From NCBI GenBank assembly GCA_001512665.1, contig LFSF01000029.1:1-33217 (forward strand): a DNA stretch of 33,217 nucleotides, given 5' to 3'. The notes beneath the pieces were generated by a model. The model ran no database searches. It worked only from the letters and a program-made list of their open reading frames with translations, and was not told the DNA's origin. Below, piece by piece: positions 13,539 to 21,658 of the stretch; position 1 is the first letter of the stretch, and every line of letters begins with the position of its first letter. The position numbers were made by a program, and so were the translations under genes. The stretch comes from Clostridiales bacterium DTU073. Lineage in GTDB: Bacteria; Bacillota; Peptococcia; DRI-13; DTU073.

Positions 13539-13588
13539 AATTCAGTATGATATTATTATTTGGACAAGTAAGGAGGAGAAGCCGCAAG

Positions 13589-14824
13589 ATGAGATGGGAG
13601 AAAATTTTTATTCTAATCATTATTACAGCCTTGATTATTGGCGGGGCTTTTTGGTCCGTCGATCCAATTCGGGACAATCTTAAATTGGGTTTAGATCTTA
13701 AGGGCGGGGTTATGGTTAGACTACAGGCACAAGGGTCTGCTACAGATAGAGATATAGCTCAAGTTATTGAAATCATGCGTACTCGTGTAGATTCTTTGGG
13801 TGTTACGGAGCCGGTAATACAACGAGAAGGATCTGATCGTATTTTGATTGAAATACCTGGGATTGAGGATCCGGAAAGTGCAATTAATTTGATTGGGAAA
13901 ACAGCTTTATTAGAGTTTAAAACAATGGACGGGGAAGTAATTCTCACCGGTAAAGATTTAGTCGAAGCTCAAGAAGCGAAAGACCCACAATCAGGAAAAG
14001 CTTATGTAGGTTTAAAATTTAATGCCGAAGGGACAAAAAAATTCGCTGAAGCTACAGCTCGTTTAGTGAATGAGTATCCGGACGAGGACGGGCAGAGAAG
14101 TGAAGGTAGGCATATAGCCATTTATTTAGATGGGCAAATGATTCAGAATCCATATGTTCAGGAGTCGATTCCCAGTGGTGAGGCCAGTATTAGCGGTGGA
14201 TTTGAAACTCTTGAGGATGCGCGTAGTATTGCCTTGCTTTTACGTTCCGGAGCTTTGCCTGTTCCGGTAGAGATTATCGAAAATAGGTCAGTAGGCCCGA
14301 CTTTAGGTGCGGAATCTATTACTAAAAGTTTACAGGCAGCAATTTGGGGGTTAGCTGCGATTATGCTGTTTATGCTTTTCTTTTATCGGGTACCGGGAAT
14401 TATTGCTAATTTATCTCTGGTGCTGTATGCCTTACTCTTATTAGGTATTCTTTTAGCGATAAAGGCAACGTTGACCTTGCCGGGAATTGCCGGATTCCTA
14501 TTGTCGATAGGGATGTGTGTAGATGCTAATATCCTTATTTATGAAAGGATTAAAGAAGAATTGAGAAATGGGAAGAGTTTGCGTGCGGCCATTGATGCCG
14601 GCTTCTCCAGAGCTTTTACGACAATATTTGATTCTAATGTGACGACACTGATTGCGGCAGCGGTTCTTTTCTTTGTTGGCAGCGGAACAATTAAGGGTTT
14701 TGCCGTTACTTTGAGTATAGGTATCCTTTGTAGTATGTTTACGGCAATTACTTTCACCAGATTTGTGTTAAAGGCACTTGTTGATTCTGGATTGGTGAAA
14801 AACACCAAATTATACGGAGCATAA
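13589..14824 (+). CDS. secD: Protein translocase subunit SecD
   Basis: SecD works with SecF behind the SecYEG channel, using the proton gradient to complete export. The 411-residue protein has an N-terminal membrane helix, the D1 motif LGLDLKGGVMV, a large extracytoplasmic domain with VDSLGVTEPVIQREG and IEIPGI, and five C-terminal membrane helices including the MCVDANILIYERIKEELR motif. I take ATG 13589, preceded by AGGAGGAG. Earlier in-frame codons would add a non-conserved extension overlapping the likely transcription start. SecF follows as a separate gene, unlike the fused SecDF of B. subtilis. Confidence 0.96.
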   Translation: MRWEKIFILIIITALIIGGAFWSVDPIRDNLKLGLDLKGGVMVRLQAQGSATDRDIAQVIEIMRTRVDSLGVTEPVIQREGSDRILIEIPGIEDPESAINLIGKTALLEFKTMDGEVILTGKDLVEAQEAKDPQSGKAYVGLKFNAEGTKKFAEATARLVNEYPDEDGQRSEGRHIAIYLDGQMIQNPYVQESIPSGEASISGGFETLEDARSIALLLRSGALPVPVEIIENRSVGPTLGAESITKSLQAAIWGLAAIMLFMLFFYRVPGIIANLSLVLYALLLLGILLAIKATLTLPGIAGFLLSIGMCVDANILIYERIKEELRNGKSLRAAIDAGFSRAFTTIFDSNVTTLIAAAVLFFVGSGTIKGFAVTLSIGILCSMFTAITFTRFVLKALVDSGLVKNTKLYGA

Positions 14825-14837
14825 GGAGGGGATAAAT

Positions 14838-15707
14838 ATGGATATTATTGGAAAAAGAAAAGTATGGTATATTCTCACGCTGATTCTTCTTTTAACTGCA
14901 ATAATCTCCCTTTTTGTGCAAGGTTTAAATTTTGGTATTGATTTTCAGGGGGGAACATTACTTCAGTTGAAGTTTGAGAAAGCTGATGTTACCGATACAG
15001 AAATTCGTGAAGCTTTAAAAGAATTTGGTTTGGAAAAGAGTGTTTTACAAAGATCTGAGGATTCTTTTATTCTAAAAACACCAGAATTAGGACAGGAGAA
15101 ACAAAATGAAGTTTTAAAGACGATAGAGACAGAGACAGGAAAGTTTGAATTATTACGGAGTGAAAATGTAGGACCTGTTATTGGGGAAGAATTAAGACGA
15201 GCCGGTATTTTGGCATTAGTTATCGCGGGCATATTGCAGGTATTATATATTACCTTCCGTTTTGAGTTTAGGTTTGCCATTGCCGCTATTTTAGCCCTAA
15301 TTCAAGATGCGATTATTACCGTCGGTCTTTTCTCTGTATTGCAGTACGAAGTTGATATTACCTTTATTGCCGCTATTTTAACTGTTATCGGATATTCAAT
15401 TAATAATACCATTGTTATCTTTGACCGGATTCGGGAAAATCTAAAGCTAAAACGTAAAGAAAACTTGGCGACACTAGTGAATGCCAGTATAAAACAAAAC
15501 ATTGTACGTTCTATCAATACAACTTTAACGGTGGCGTTTATGTTAGTTGCTTTACTGGTTTTAGGAGGAGAGACTACGCGTTATTTTGCAATGGCTATGT
15601 TGACTGGAATTATTGCAGGTCTATACTCTTCCGTTTTCCTTTCTGGAGCGTTATGGTACGATTTTGTTCCGGTAGTAAATGGACAGAAAAAAATTATAAA
15701 GCTCTAA
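14838..15707 (+). CDS. secF: Protein translocase subunit SecF
   Basis: The partner of SecD. The 289 residues begin MDIIGKRKVWY and include the first membrane helix, the D1 motif NFGIDFQGGTLLQLKF, a short periplasmic domain ending NVGPVIGEELRRAG and five further membrane helices with VIGYSINNTIVIFDRIREN and SINTTLTVAFML. AAGGAGGGG stands before the ATG, and only 13 bases separate it from secD, so the two are co-translated from one message. A strong terminator follows. Confidence 0.96.
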   Translation: MDIIGKRKVWYILTLILLLTAIISLFVQGLNFGIDFQGGTLLQLKFEKADVTDTEIREALKEFGLEKSVLQRSEDSFILKTPELGQEKQNEVLKTIETETGKFELLRSENVGPVIGEELRRAGILALVIAGILQVLYITFRFEFRFAIAAILALIQDAIITVGLFSVLQYEVDITFIAAILTVIGYSINNTIVIFDRIRENLKLKRKENLATLVNASIKQNIVRSINTTLTVAFMLVALLVLGGETTRYFAMAMLTGIIAGLYSSVFLSGALWYDFVPVVNGQKKIIKL

Positions 15708-15802: not shown

Positions 15803-18800
15803 ATGACTGGAAAACGTAGTATCTGGCAGGTAAAAAAGGCAGATCAGGATAAAAGCAGGCAGTTGGCAGCTGCTTTAGGTGTTTTACCTGTGACGGCTTC
15901 TATTCTACTGAATAAAGGGATTACAACTCCTGAAGAGGCACAGAAATTCCTGTCTGCTTCCTTAGCAGATTTGCAAAATCCTAATGAATTACCGAATCTG
16001 CGAGCAGGTGCGCGAAGGATTAAGCAAGCAATTGTTAATGGTGAGAACATCTTAATTTATGGTGATTATGATGTTGACGGCATTACGGGTACAGTTTTGC
16101 TTGCTGATTTATTACGTCGTTTGGGCGGTAAGGTTAATTATTATATTCCTAATAGAATGGAAGAAGGATATGGGTTAAACAAAGAAGCACTTGTTTATGC
16201 TAAGGAGACCAGCACAGATCTTATAGTTACTGTTGATTGTGGTATTTCTTCTGTGGCTGAAGCAGCTTTGATCATAGAAATGGGCATGGATTTAGTGATT
16301 ACTGACCACCATCAATTACCGGAGCAATTACCTACTGCACTGGCTGTGATTAATCCTAAGCTGGCTGAGGAAAATAAGCCTTGGTATGATCTATCTGGGG
16401 TAGGAGTAGCTTTTAAAGTTGGACAAGCCGTCGCTTCTTTATTCTCACAAGAGAGTATCGGTGAAGAGTATTTAGATTTAGTAGCTTTGGGGACTATAGC
16501 GGATATAGTGCCTTTACGTGATGAGAACAGGATTTTGGCTAAGGCCGGTCTGGAACGTATTAATAATAATCAATGCAGACCGGGACTTCAGGGCTTGCTT
16601 AAGCAGACCGGTTTAAAAGGAAAAGAGCTTACTTCCGGTCATGTCGGTTTTATTCTGGCTCCTCGTTTAAATGCCTGTGGCCGCTTAGGAAAAGCTGATT
16701 TAGCAGTGCGCTTATTTTTGAGTAACGATCTTCACGAAATAGAGGATATTTGCAGAATTTTAGAAGAAGAAAATATAACACGGCGTCAGGTAGAAGAGAA
16801 AATATATCAGGAAGCCTTAGAACGTCTCGCCCAAGAGGAAGAGTCCGAGGAAAATAAATTAATTTTCTTATCTGCTCCCAATTGGCATCCCGGGGTTATT
16901 GGGATTGTCGCTTCTCGGTTAACTGAGAAATATTATCGTCCCACAATTCTTTTAAATCTGGAAGAGGGAATAGGTCGAGGTTCTGCCCGGAGTATTCCCG
17001 GATTCGATTTATATCAAGCATTAGAACAGGTAAAAGAGGACCTTTGTAAATTTGGCGGACATGAAATGGCGGCGGGTTTAACCTTGTCTGAGGAAAAGAT
17101 ACCCGTGGTGCAAAAAAGTTTGCAGGAATATGCCTGTGCAGTCTTGGATGAAAAAAGTCTTACGCCTAAACTACATATAGATGCGGAAGTAGCGATAGAA
17201 GAAATCAATGAGCAATTGGTTGAGGAAATTCAACTTTTAGGTCCATTTGGTCATGGAAATCCCGCTCCGCTTTTTGTCTTGCGCAATGGTTGCTTAGCAG
17301 AAGTAAGAAAAGTAGGACAAGAGGGCAAACATTTGAAATTAAAAGTTCGTGCTAAAAACAAACAGATCGATGCAATTGCTTTTAATTGTGGAGAAATATA
17401 TGAAGAAGTAGGGGAATGGATCAGGTGTGATCTGGTTTTTCAACCACAGCTTAATACATATAAAGGTGTAACGAGAGTACAAATGCAGTTGCAAGACCTG
17501 AAAAACTCTGTACAACCGGATGACCCATATGCAACCTTATCTTTTTTAGAACAGCTTTATTTAGATGGTGAAATTTGGTTGGAAGATGACAGCTATCGGG
17601 ATATTCTTACTCAGGAACAGTTTTACACTAAAGTGGTAGGGGTTACTTATGAAGATAGACAAAAGCTGATCCGAGAAATAACTGTCGGGGAGAGTGTAGA
17701 ATTAAGACGAGAACCACACAATCCTTATGACCGTAATGCAATAGCGGTATATTTTCAAAAGCAAATGATCGGGTATTTAAAGGCACCTTTGGCTAGAAAT
17801 CTGGCGCCTGCCTTAGATCAGGGCAGTAAGTATGAGGCGGTAGTGACGCAAATTACCGGTCGTGATCAAGACTGTCTGGGAGTAAATATTTGTCTGCGTA
17901 AAATTGCTGAGGACAACAAATCTACAGAAAAAAAAGAAGCAGAATTTTTTTGCCGAGAACAGTTGGCTGACTATAGTTTTGCACAAATAGAGGAGAAAAT
18001 AAGACAGACAATTTTGGGCTCAGCAGAATATTATGAAAAACAAAAAGAAGCATTGGAATTTCTTCAAGCGGGAGAGAATACACTGCTTATCCTTGCTACC
18101 GGACGAGGCAAATCGGCTGTTTTTCAGTCCATGGCCGCCAGGTTAGCTCTCTTACAAAACAAAGCAACGATTATTGTTTATCCTTTACGGTCTTTAGTTA
18201 ATGACCAATATCATCGTCTTTGTGAAAAAATGTCTTTATTGGGTGTGCAGGTGTCTGCAGTAAATGGCTCACTGAGTAGACCGGAGCGGGAACAGTTTTT
18301 TGCTGATTTACAGCAGGGAAAGGTAGAAATAATCTTAACCACACCGGAGTTTTTAGCTTTTCATATAGAAAAGTTTAAGGCGATTAAGGATAAAATAGGT
18401 TTGCTTGTGGTGGATGAAGCACATCATTTAGCCAAGAGTAAGCGCAAGGGGTATCGCCTCTTGGGAAAAAACTGGGCACAATTAGGAAACCCGTTGGTTC
18501 TTGCGGTAACGGCAACAGCAAATAACGAGACTGCCCAACATATATCTGATGTTTTATGTTGCAAGAAAATGGTTGTAGAGAATTATGTACGTAAGAATTT
18601 GCAAGTAGTTGACCAAAGAACTGAGAAAGATAAACTCAAATATTTATTGGAATTGGTTGCTTCAGGGGAACGTATTGTTATTTATGTTAATAGTCGTAAA
18701 CAAGCATATCAGTTGGCCAGTGATTTACGCTTATATTATCCTGCAGCACGAGATGAAATCGGTTTTTATCATGGTGGTTTGTACAGTGAGTATCGGACAA

Positions 18801-19429
18801 TTTTAGAAAGAATGTTTCGTGAGGGAGAATTACGGGTTATGGTTACCACCAGTGCTTTCGGGGAGGGTATTGATATTCCCGATATCAAACATGTAGTGCT
18901 TTACCATTTATGCTTTTCCTTAACGGAGTTTAATCAGTTGTCAGGAAGGGCCGGTCGGAATAACGAAGAGGCGAAAATTCATCTACTTTTTAATGAAAGT
19001 GATCGAAAACTAAATGAACTGATTTTAGAAAGTGCCGCTCCTTCTCGGGCTGTTTTGGGTAAGTTTTATCTTTATTTGCGAGAGGAATGTGAGAAAAAAG
19101 GGAATCCCCTATTAGCAACTAATGAAGAGTTAGCGCAAGCGATGTTGAAATTTGGATTAAAAAATTTGAAGCAACAAACGGTCTCAGTGTGTCTGGGTAT
19201 CTTAGAAGATATAGGTTTACTCCGACGGGAAACTGAGGGTAAACAAAGATGTATCTATCTGCTTCCACCTCCGTCTCAGAAACTGAATTTAGCGGATTCT
19301 CTACGTTATTTGGAAGGACAGGATGAATGGGAAGAATTTCGGTATTTTGCTGAGTTTGCTTTAAAAGAAGAGAAGGAAGTTATTCTGGAAAGAATCAACA
19401 GGCCTCTTGTCCCTGTTGAGGCTGTTTAG
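15803..19429 (+). CDS. recJ: RecJ exonuclease fused to HIRAN domain and RecQ-like helicase
   Basis: This 1208-residue protein joins three modules in one uninterrupted reading frame. Residues 1 to about 570 are RecJ, the 5'-3' single-strand DNA exonuclease: DYDVDG (88-93), VDCG (144-147), the DHH motif (168-170), GGHEMAAG (418-425) and an OB-fold region. Residues about 605-695 match a HIRAN domain (FYTKVVGV at 607-614, EPHNPYDRNAI at 637-647), which in eukaryotic HLTF/Rad5 binds 3' DNA ends at stalled forks. Residues about 735-1090 are an SF2 helicase: motif I ATGRGKS (765-771), DEAH (871-874), TSAFGEGIDIP, and QLSGRAGR (1045-1052). The zinc-binding cysteines of RecQ are not visible. AGGAGA precedes the ATG. 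RecJ and RecQ normally cooperate as separate proteins, so the fusion suggests a single unwinding-and-degrading machine (inference). Confidence 0.9.
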   Translation: MTGKRSIWQVKKADQDKSRQLAAALGVLPVTASILLNKGITTPEEAQKFLSASLADLQNPNELPNLRAGARRIKQAIVNGENILIYGDYDVDGITGTVLLADLLRRLGGKVNYYIPNRMEEGYGLNKEALVYAKETSTDLIVTVDCGISSVAEAALIIEMGMDLVITDHHQLPEQLPTALAVINPKLAEENKPWYDLSGVGVAFKVGQAVASLFSQESIGEEYLDLVALGTIADIVPLRDENRILAKAGLERINNNQCRPGLQGLLKQTGLKGKELTSGHVGFILAPRLNACGRLGKADLAVRLFLSNDLHEIEDICRILEEENITRRQVEEKIYQEALERLAQEEESEENKLIFLSAPNWHPGVIGIVASRLTEKYYRPTILLNLEEGIGRGSARSIPGFDLYQALEQVKEDLCKFGGHEMAAGLTLSEEKIPVVQKSLQEYACAVLDEKSLTPKLHIDAEVAIEEINEQLVEEIQLLGPFGHGNPAPLFVLRNGCLAEVRKVGQEGKHLKLKVRAKNKQIDAIAFNCGEIYEEVGEWIRCDLVFQPQLNTYKGVTRVQMQLQDLKNSVQPDDPYATLSFLEQLYLDGEIWLEDDSYRDILTQEQFYTKVVGVTYEDRQKLIREITVGESVELRREPHNPYDRNAIAVYFQKQMIGYLKAPLARNLAPALDQGSKYEAVVTQITGRDQDCLGVNICLRKIAEDNKSTEKKEAEFFCREQLADYSFAQIEEKIRQTILGSAEYYEKQKEALEFLQAGENTLLILATGRGKSAVFQSMAARLALLQNKATIIVYPLRSLVNDQYHRLCEKMSLLGVQVSAVNGSLSRPEREQFFADLQQGKVEIILTTPEFLAFHIEKFKAIKDKIGLLVVDEAHHLAKSKRKGYRLLGKNWAQLGNPLVLAVTATANNETAQHISDVLCCKKMVVENYVRKNLQVVDQRTEKDKLKYLLELVASGERIVIYVNSRKQAYQLASDLRLYYPAARDEIGFYHGGLYSEYRTILERMFREGELRVMVTTSAFGEGIDIPDIKHVVLYHLCFSLTEFNQLSGRAGRNNEEAKIHLLFNESDRKLNELILESAAPSRAVLGKFYLYLREECEKKGNPLLATNEELAQAMLKFGLKNLKQQTVSVCLGILEDIGLLRRETEGKQRCIYLLPPPSQKLNLADSLRYLEGQDEWEEFRYFAEFALKEEKEVILERINRPLVPVEAV

Positions 19430-19468
19430 TTATAATTATAATGTTAATGATAAGTGGTAGGTGGAAGA

Positions 19469-21658
19469 ATGTCTTGCGATGATCTTTTTAAAGAACTAGT
19501 GGAAAAAGTAAAATATCAAAATCCCGAGGAATTAGAAATAGTAAAAGCCGCCTATGCTTTTGCCAAAAAGGCTCATACCAAGCAAAAAAGGATCTCCGGA
19601 GAGCCTTATATCTGTCATCCTTTAGCTGTCGCCCAAATTTTGAATAGTTTAGAATTGGACATGGCGACTATCGCTGCAGGGTTGCTTCATGACGTAGTAG
19701 AGGATACACCTGTTGTTTTATCAGAAATTGAAGAAAAATTTGGTGCGGAAATTGCTCTATTAGTTGATGGAGTTACGAAGTTAACTAGATTGGAATCCCG
19801 CTCTAAAGAGGAACAACAGGTAGAAAATTTACGTAAGATGTTTGTAGCTATGGCTAAAGATATTCGGGTAATCATGATTAAATTAGCCGATCGCCTGCAT
19901 AATATGCGCACCTTAAATCATCAACCTGAACACAAACAGAAAGAAATTGCCAGGGAGACATTGGAGATTTTTGCGCCGCTGGCTGATCGTTTGGGGATAT
20001 TTACGATCAAATGGGAGTTGGAGGATATAGCTTTTCGCTACTTAAATAAAGAAGAATACCACGGCTTAGTTAAAAAAATTTCCATGAAAAGACGGGAACG
20101 GGAAGCTTATATCGAACATGTTATCAACATCTTAAGGGATAAATTAAATGAAGCAAAGATAAAGGCAGACATTCAAGGAAGACCAAAGCACTTTTATAGT
20201 ATTTATAAAAAGATGAAGGATAAGGAAAAAGATTTAAACGAAATTTATGATCTAATTGCCGTCAGAGTTATTGTCGATACAGTAAGAGATTGTTATGAAG
20301 TTCTGGGTATAATTCACACTCTCTGGACACCTATCCCCGGAAGATTTAAAGATTATATTGCTATGCCTAAACCTAATATGTATCAGTCTTTACACACCAC
20401 CGTAATGGGTTTGTCCGGGGAACCTTTTGAGATTCAAATTCGCACCGTGGAAATGCATCGGACCGCTGAGTTTGGCATTGCCGCTCATTGGCGTTATAAA
20501 GAAGGAACAAAAGCCGGAAACAAGGATTTAGATCGACGTTTATCTTGGTTGAGAAAGATTTTAGAATGGCAAAAGGAAGTTAAAGATACTAAGGAATTTA
20601 TGGAGACCCTGAAAATTGATGTTTTCTCCGATGTAGTTTTTGTTTTTACCCCTAAAGGGGAGGTTAAGGAGCTTCCAGCGGGTTCTATACCTCTCGATTT
20701 TGCTTATCGTATTCATTCTGATGTCGGCAATCGTTGTGTAGGCTGTAGGGTTAACGGAAAAATGGTTCCTTTGGATTATGTTTTAAAAAATGGTGATATT
20801 GTCGAGATCATTACCACTAAACAGGCGAATGGACCTAGCCGAGATTGGTTAAAGATGGTGAAGACCTCTCAGGCTAAGAATAAAATTAGGCAATGGTTTA
20901 AGAAAGAAAAACGCGAGGAAAATCTGCTGTTGGGGCGTGATAGCCTGGAGAGGGAAGTGAGAAAGCAGGGTCTGGATCCAGCGGAAGTATTTAAAACTGA
21001 CAAAATGATGGAAACAGCCAAGCGTTTCGGGATGAATCATTATGAAAACTTGTATGTGGCTATTGGTGAAGGTGCACTTACAGCTTTACAGGTTTGTACT
21101 AGAATCAGGGATGATTTTTACCCTGAAAAGAAACCGGAACAGTCAGTTTCTTTAGCCGAAATTAAGGCAAAGACTCAAAAAAAGAAACAGAATTTAAGGA
21201 CGACACATGGAATTAAGGTTAAAGGAGAAGAGGATGTTTTAGTAAGATTGGCACGTTGTTGTAATCCTTTACCCGGTGACGAGATCGTCGGTTATATTAC
21301 CAGAGGACGAGGAATTTCTGTACATCGGAATGATTGTGCCAATGTCCAGAATTTAAGTGAAGAAGAGCAGGCCAGAATTGTTGAGGTAGCTTGGGATGAA
21401 GATTATGAGAGTGAATATCAGGTAGAGTTAGAGATATATGCATTAGACAGAACACGTTTGGCCTTAGATATTATGAGTACTTTAGCGGAGATGAAAATAC
21501 ACATTAATACTATTAACGTGCGAACCATTAAACTTGGGCATGCTATGATTAATCTTAAAGTTGATATCCGTACAATTAATCAATTGAAAATATTGCTGAT
21601 GAAGATTAGGAGAATCAAAGATGTCATAGATGTCTATAGAGTAGTTCCGAAAAAATAA
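19469..21658 (+). CDS. relA: Bifunctional (p)ppGpp synthetase/hydrolase RelA/SpoT
   Basis: Makes and degrades the alarmone (p)ppGpp in the stringent response. The 729 residues hold an HD hydrolase domain with intact motif ([21 protein letters not shown]), the synthetase domain ([38 protein letters not shown]), a TGS domain ([12 protein letters not shown]), a C-terminal region with conserved cysteines ([19 protein letters not shown]) and an ACT domain. Both catalytic halves appear functional. ATG 19469 with AGGTGG four bases before it is chosen over GTG 19454. In B. subtilis apt lies between recJ and relA; here it is missing. Confidence 0.95.

Follow-up and report, generated by a model that had tools for sequence, protein, structure and literature searches.

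A RecJ nuclease fused to a HIRAN domain and a RecQ-like helicase in Clostridiales bacterium DTU073, and its candidate remnants in the RecJ proteins of Bacillota

RecJ is a 5'-3' DHH nuclease. The window analysed here, a stretch of 33,217 nucleotides from Clostridiales bacterium DTU073 (contig LFSF01000029.1), carries a recJ gene whose product continues in frame into a HIRAN domain, a superfamily 2 (SF2) helicase and a C-terminal winged-helix domain (CTD) (Table 1). An earlier note made from the DNA letters had proposed a single protein of 1208 residues, and the frame is indeed open for 1208 codons. All six Pfam domains lie above their curated cut-offs in the order DHH, DHHA1, RecJ_OB, HIRAN, DEAD and Helicase_C, which agrees with the in-frame HIRAN domain and helicase described before; the conserved winged-helix CTD (about residues 1071-1208) is an extra domain absent from the earlier description. 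The RecJ portion reaches 572.7 bits on the NCBIfam recJ model TIGR00644 (cut-off 396.9), and the catalytic motifs DxD, DHH and GGH are all found, those previously read as DYDVDG, DHH and GGHEMAAG being confirmed. Lobe 1 of the helicase contains Walker A TGRGKS (766-771), motif II VDEAH (870-874) and motif III VTATA (902-906), and lobe 2 contains TSAFGEG and the motif VI region QLSGRAGRN (1045-1053). By sequence, residues 7-571 have their closest solved relative in RecJ, and residues from about 730 to 1080 in RecQ. Both the fusion architecture and the intact motifs were computed directly. Furthermore, an equal fused frame runs from end to end in independent genomes at 37-67 % identity, which bears out its intactness.

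Table 1 Features of the fusion gene and its conserved neighbours (positions in the window)
Feature	Residues	Position	Strand	Evidence
recJ-HIRAN-helicase fusion gene, 1208 aa		15803..19429	+	unbroken open reading frame; equal frame in independent genomes
DHH nuclease domain	82-231	16046..16495	+	Pfam PF01368, 97 bits; YGDYDVDG 86-93, DHH 168-170
DHHA1 domain	352-443	16856..17131	+	Pfam PF02272, 58 bits; GGHEMAAG 418-425
RecJ OB domain (RecJ_OB)	459-565	17177..17497	+	Pfam PF17768, 112 bits
HIRAN domain	606-686	17618..17860	+	Pfam PF08797, 60.3 bits (cut-off 24.7); N-P-Y-D 640-643
SF2 helicase lobe 1 (DEAD)	745-911	18035..18535	+	Pfam PF00270, 82 bits
SF2 helicase lobe 2 (Helicase_C)	944-1053	18632..18961	+	Pfam PF00271, 92 bits; RecQ-family fold match
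C-terminal winged-helix domain (CTD) and tail helices	1071-1208	19013..19426	+	AlphaFold2 (predicted local distance difference test 93-94); profile comparison with RecJ C-terminal domains; homologous to the second half of PF10141
secD		13547..14824	+	NCBIfam TIGR01129; conserved neighbour, a marker of the canonical recJ locus
secF		14838..15707	+	NCBIfam TIGR00966; conserved neighbour
relA/spoT		19454..21658	+	NCBIfam TIGR00691; conserved neighbour

The gene order is secD, secF, fusion, relA/spoT, D-aminoacyl-tRNA deacylase, MBL-fold hydrolase, hemZ, hisS and aspS, and the secD-secF-recJ-relA surroundings are those in which recJ usually lies in Bacillota. In this phylum apt is often located between recJ and relA/spoT; in the window relA/spoT follows directly after recJ (19429-19454), and no open reading frame of at least 100 amino acids (aa) lies in between.

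The earlier note had left it to be seen whether separate recJ and recQ genes exist in the same genome. No RecJ other than the fusion is encoded there; the other DHH-domain proteins are of the GdpP type, of the DHHA2/CBS/DRTGG pyrophosphatase type, and a 332-aa frame (C27) which gave no match to the RecJ family model. The sole other RecQ-family match over the cut-off is a 1634-aa protein (L052:885-5789, minus strand; G000:C47). It combines a RecQ-type helicase (296-614) with a UvrD-type helicase (1079-1505) and adjoins two genes for DNA methyltransferases; three further genomes (G015, G023 and G436) likewise have frames of about 1600 aa that match a RecQ-type helicase. The fusion is probably the housekeeping RecJ of the organism.

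The motor and the HIRAN domain

On the RecQ family model TIGR00614 the motor scores 177.1 bits, under the cut-off of 219.8; the curated cut-off of TIGR01389 is missed as well, and no HRDC match was found in NCBIfam and Pfam scans. A four-cysteine zinc subdomain is missing, the cysteines after lobe 1 being scattered at 919, 920, 1037, 1096, 1130 and 1150. Profiles of RecG and Mfd match the motor too, less strongly than RecQ. In an AlphaFold2 model of lobe 2 and CTD (predicted local distance difference test 94, predicted template modelling score 0.87), the CTD forms a winged helix followed by two helices. All 50 matches listed for this model in a fold search of the PDB belong to the RecQ family, with the D2-Zn-WH part of RecQ1 at the top (E 2e-12). 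The CTD alone retrieves generic winged-helix proteins, none of them at E<1e-3, and the solved RecJ 8y30 is not among the 50 matches listed. The term RecQ-like helicase, as used in the earlier note, therefore stands for sequence and fold but not as membership in the RecQ family.

The HIRAN domain of the window matches the HIRAN chains of human HLTF (phmmer E ~2e-5) via the stretch NPYDxNAI. N640 and D643 are invariant across 24 aligned fusions, and Y642 is replaced by H or F in some relatives. In HLTF, the DNA cavity is flanked by Y72 and Y93, fork regression depends on N90/N91, and regression as such requires the HIRAN domain (PMC4666394). The DNA-binding residues N91 and Y93 of HLTF (numbering of PMC4666394) align with N640 and Y642 in NPYD. 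The likeness to HLTF asserted before thus holds at the sequence level, the N-x-Y-D stretch included. A HIRAN domain is absent from active RecJ-helicase fusions of Collinsella, Eggerthellaceae, family f8 and a metagenome-assembled genome (MAG) of Clostridia (L142-L151, L032-L037 and L080, the last being the MAG).

Distribution and common inheritance of the two halves

The whole protein was used to search 60 genomes, namely that of the window and those of related organisms. The full-length fusion turned up within the family, the order and the class of the window, and in a single genome beyond the class (G055). Scanning 84,980 species genomes with an alignment of HIRAN domain, helicase and CTD gave 193 relatives, of which 80, all in named genomes, were kept; 74 of these loci are fused to RecJ in one frame, contig ends truncate five others, and one (L135) is without a RecJ core. 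Bacillota hosts include Peptococcaceae, other Clostridia MAGs, Thermincola, Orenia, Anaerospora and Massilibacillus, and further fusions or relatives were found in Coriobacteriia (Collinsella, Olsenella, Adlercreutzia), other Actinomycetota and one Eremiobacterota. Among 399 genomes drawn evenly from the phylum of the window, at least 29 carry the full-length fused form. The aligned fusions keep the motor motifs over two phyla at 35-69 % identity to the window.

Of nine checked genomes with RecJ, eight have no RecJ over the cut-off besides the fusion, and a RecQ over the TIGR01389 cut-off exists in just 5 of 17 fusion genomes. In G007 (one contig, 99 % complete) the only RecQ-type match at E<1e-50 is the fused one. 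Trees of the RecJ core and of the helicase, built from the same proteins, have 24 of 31 splits in common (shuffled mean 0.4); therefore the two halves have been inherited together, and they are widely conserved. The author of the earlier note knew of no characterised protein with this architecture. Likewise, neither a RecJ-HIRAN or RecJ-RecQ fusion nor a helicase identity of the RecJ domain PF10141 is described in the open literature searched (subscription papers lay outside the scope); the architecture is not a local oddity, however, since it is old and widespread.

Stand-alone forms exist as well. An Eremiobacterota contig (L135:2334-4304, plus strand) encodes HIRAN domain, helicase and CTD after two open reading frames which resemble secD and secF by eye, and no RecJ was found in its possibly incomplete genome. 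A second stand-alone gene (L184:2843-4786, plus strand; the same gene in L229) is located on an island, together with genes that by eye resemble those for SSB, a ParM-type ATPase and a DndC/PAPS-reductase-type protein. The genome of L184 (G192) has two RecJs, one of them carrying a dead fused helicase. Both stand-alone forms fall inside the fused clade with modest support. A phage or plasmid origin was rejected: tblastn in phages and plasmids gave only general RecQ/SF2 helicases, none covering 80 %. IMG/VR contributed a single match; this stand-alone HIRAN-helicase, carried by a mobile island, is nested in the fused clade and looks excised rather than ancestral. A role in defence was also dismissed, as the PADLOC matches (PsyrT, DpdF) span only the shared helicase core and the gene resides at a housekeeping locus.

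Decay of the motor and the C-terminal domain of ordinary RecJ

About 190 RecJs were scanned with domain models derived from active fusions. Nearly all of about 100 fusions keep Walker A TGRGK[ST], motif II DE[ASC]H and the arginine pattern of motif VI; in a few of them motif VI lies outside the search pattern. A full-length but dead helicase stands behind RecJ in five cases (L042, L046, L185, L197 and L198), only lobe 2 and CTD are left in others (L038-L041, L204-L206, L209, L211, L214 and L218), and in further RecJs the CTD alone is detectable. The RecJ motifs are intact in every form tabulated for motifs. In one otherwise intact fusion (L219, genome G585) Walker A reads TSRGKS instead of TGRGKS, perhaps an early step of decay.

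Active and non-active states were mapped on a RecJ-core tree of 64 taxa, in which the deep branching order lacks resolution. The states call for 13 changes (12-14 in bootstraps), and branches with good support impose at least six of these. Dead and active forms group closely together in the families f11 (clade support 100/98), f50 (100/99) and f9/f10 (96/80) and in the pair L096-L045 (95/95). The direction is from active to dead because regain of lost motor motifs is very unlikely; whole-gene transfer could stand behind some of the 13 changes.

PF10141, the region after the OB domain of RecJ, is present in 135 of 151 sampled Bacilli genomes. A profile of 48 Bacilli RecJ C-termini aligned with lobe 2 and CTD of the active fusions at an hhalign probability (P) of 98.4 (E 4.9e-15, 215 columns), with lobe 2 alone at P 86.1 (E 5e-6) and with the CTD alone at P 97.5. 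Since these are pairwise values, not calibrated on a database, controls were run, and lobe 1, DHH, OB and reversed profiles all stayed at P<1. With a profile of six Bacilli sequences the lobe 2 part was not significant; the signal came with the 48 sequences. The same profile-profile alignment to lobe 2 and CTD was obtained for the post-OB region of nearly all sampled Bacillota RecJs, for example P 99.9 for the L204 group, 99.2 for L206, 98.8 for L063, 98.2 for the L044 group and 97.9 for L210, and for the actinomycetotal L227 (P 98.6). In this multi-lineage run the DHH, OB and reversed controls gave P of at most 1.4 and lobe 1 gave 7.5. The tails of other Actinomycetota (L235, L237, L239/L240) showed no clear relation to lobe 2 and CTD in the profile comparison.

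In the solved RecJ 8y30, residues 540-756 match this C-terminal domain by sequence profile. The Pfam model of PF10141 itself matches one active fusion (L060), under its cut-off. Neither the Bacilli nor the CTD profiles matched 5f54 or 2zxo, RecJs of Deinococcus-Thermus with an extra C-terminal domain (PMC4663267), and no Bacilli RecJ C-terminal domain was found in viral contigs. The PF10141 region is homologous to lobe 2 and CTD, and is best read as a putative fossil helicase that was dismantled repeatedly. It appears reasonably probable that a RecJ-HIRAN-RecQ-type helicase in one piece was already present in the common ancestor of most Bacillota, an ancestor which Actinomycetota may share, that the motor was dismantled independently many times and that the C-terminal domain of RecJ in Bacillus and other Bacilli is a fossil, retained because its lobe 2 and winged helix still act as a docking surface for DNA or SSB.

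Proposed function, rival explanations and relation to known systems

RecQ and RecJ are established partners in the production of 3' single-stranded DNA (PMC3000357), as reportedly also described by Morimatsu and Kowalczykowski in 2014 (cited in PMC4663267). With a probability of about 0.7, the fusion is a RecJ with a RecQ-type 3'-to-5' helicase and a HIRAN sensor in cis, of ancient origin, and the Bacillus-type PF10141 is the remnant of this motor. A self-contained resection machine, as the earlier note envisaged, is plausible from the domain content; ATPase and helicase activity, polarity, end sensing and strand hand-off are predicted from homology. The HIRAN domain and the winged helix would guide the enzyme to a fork junction or a 3'-ended single strand, and the motor would travel along the 3'-ended strand into the duplex. 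The RecJ active site would receive the displaced 5'-ended strand and digest it, so that 3' single-stranded DNA remains for RecA, and in many lineages the motor would have decayed in place with RecJ intact. One chain would in this way perform what RecQ and RecJ perform as partners elsewhere, where they form a helicase/exonuclease couple making single-stranded DNA at damaged DNA or inactivated forks (PMC3000357).

Several points weigh against this interpretation. The missed RecQ cut-offs and the absent zinc-type cysteine cluster leave the RecQ polarity as an inference, and the CTD on its own found only the generic winged-helix proteins mentioned above. HIRAN is not essential to the core activity because several active fusions are without it, and the repeated loss implies that the motor is dispensable in many lineages. 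In addition, RecJ of E. coli is without such a C-terminal region.

The motor could instead be mainly a fork remodeller, a HIRAN-guided double-strand translocase like HLTF or RecG, with RecJ trimming the 5' strand of the regressed fork and without processive resection. The sensor which HLTF needs for fork regression (PMC4666394), its sequence likeness in the window and the weaker RecG and Mfd matches would fit such a role, but the best sequence and fold matches are to RecQ and not to SNF2 or RecG, and HIRAN is missing in several active fusions, which makes this proposal unlikely. Rather improbable is an origin in which the winged-helix CTD was original to RecJ and HIRAN domain and helicase were inserted before it later, ordinary Bacilli RecJs never having had a helicase. 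In its favour, conservation within the remnants is highest in the CTD (P 96-97), and single Bacilli sequences give a weak signal for lobe 2 alone, which is not significant in the six-sequence profile either. However, the stretch from OB to CTD of non-helicase RecJs is homologous to lobe 2 in four lineages (P 99.0, 97.4, 95.8 and 95.3) and reaches P 86 in the 48-sequence Bacilli profile; moreover, full-length dead helicases exist and dead forms are nested in active clades.

That the fusion is an occasional accident, with two independent activities on one chain and no joint function, would agree with the frequent loss of the motor and with the separate canonical RecQ in 5/17 genomes. Motor motifs kept over two phyla at 35-69 % identity and the shared history of the halves render it improbable to a still higher degree. 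An artefact of assembly or frame, conceivable for a draft genome of 52 contigs, has a negligible chance and is excluded by the equal fused frame in many independent assemblies, among them the one-contig G007 and the complete Collinsella stercoris chromosome.

RecQ and RecJ, usually viewed as two enzymes meeting on DNA ends and gaps, form one chain here in two phyla, and the coupling of unwinding and digestion becomes directly testable with one purified protein. PF10141 as a worn-out helicase lobe would explain an orphan domain and predict its fold, its DNA-contact sites and the lineages with a working ancestor; the many intermediates would form a natural series for a motor domain decaying into a binding module. 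If the remnant reading is true, the two classic partner enzymes may have started out as a single protein in Bacillus-like bacteria.

Among known systems, RecQ (TIGR00614/TIGR01389) is the best relative of the motor in sequence and fold and the functional partner of RecJ; the motor of the fusion differs in staying below the family cut-offs, in having neither an HRDC match nor zinc-type cysteines, and in its position behind a nuclease. RecJ with PF10141 (Bacillus, 8y30) has the same DHH-DHHA1-OB nuclease and a C-terminal domain homologous to lobe 2 and CTD of the fusion, whereas this ordinary protein is without HIRAN domain, lobe 1 and helicase motifs. The HIRAN-SNF2 proteins HLTF and Rad5 also have a HIRAN domain beside an SF2 motor, with the N-x-Y-D stretch kept, but their motor is of the SNF2 type and is combined with a RING domain and no nuclease. 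WRN, an exonuclease-RecQ fusion, unites nuclease and RecQ-type helicase in one chain as well; its exonuclease is 3'-5' by PDB description and of another fold, in contrast to the 5'-3' DHH nuclease RecJ. Finally, DinG of Staphylococcus aureus with its N-terminal 3'-5' exonuclease is a bacterial exonuclease-SF2 helicase fusion too, with a helicase of another family and the opposite nuclease polarity (PMC12345164).

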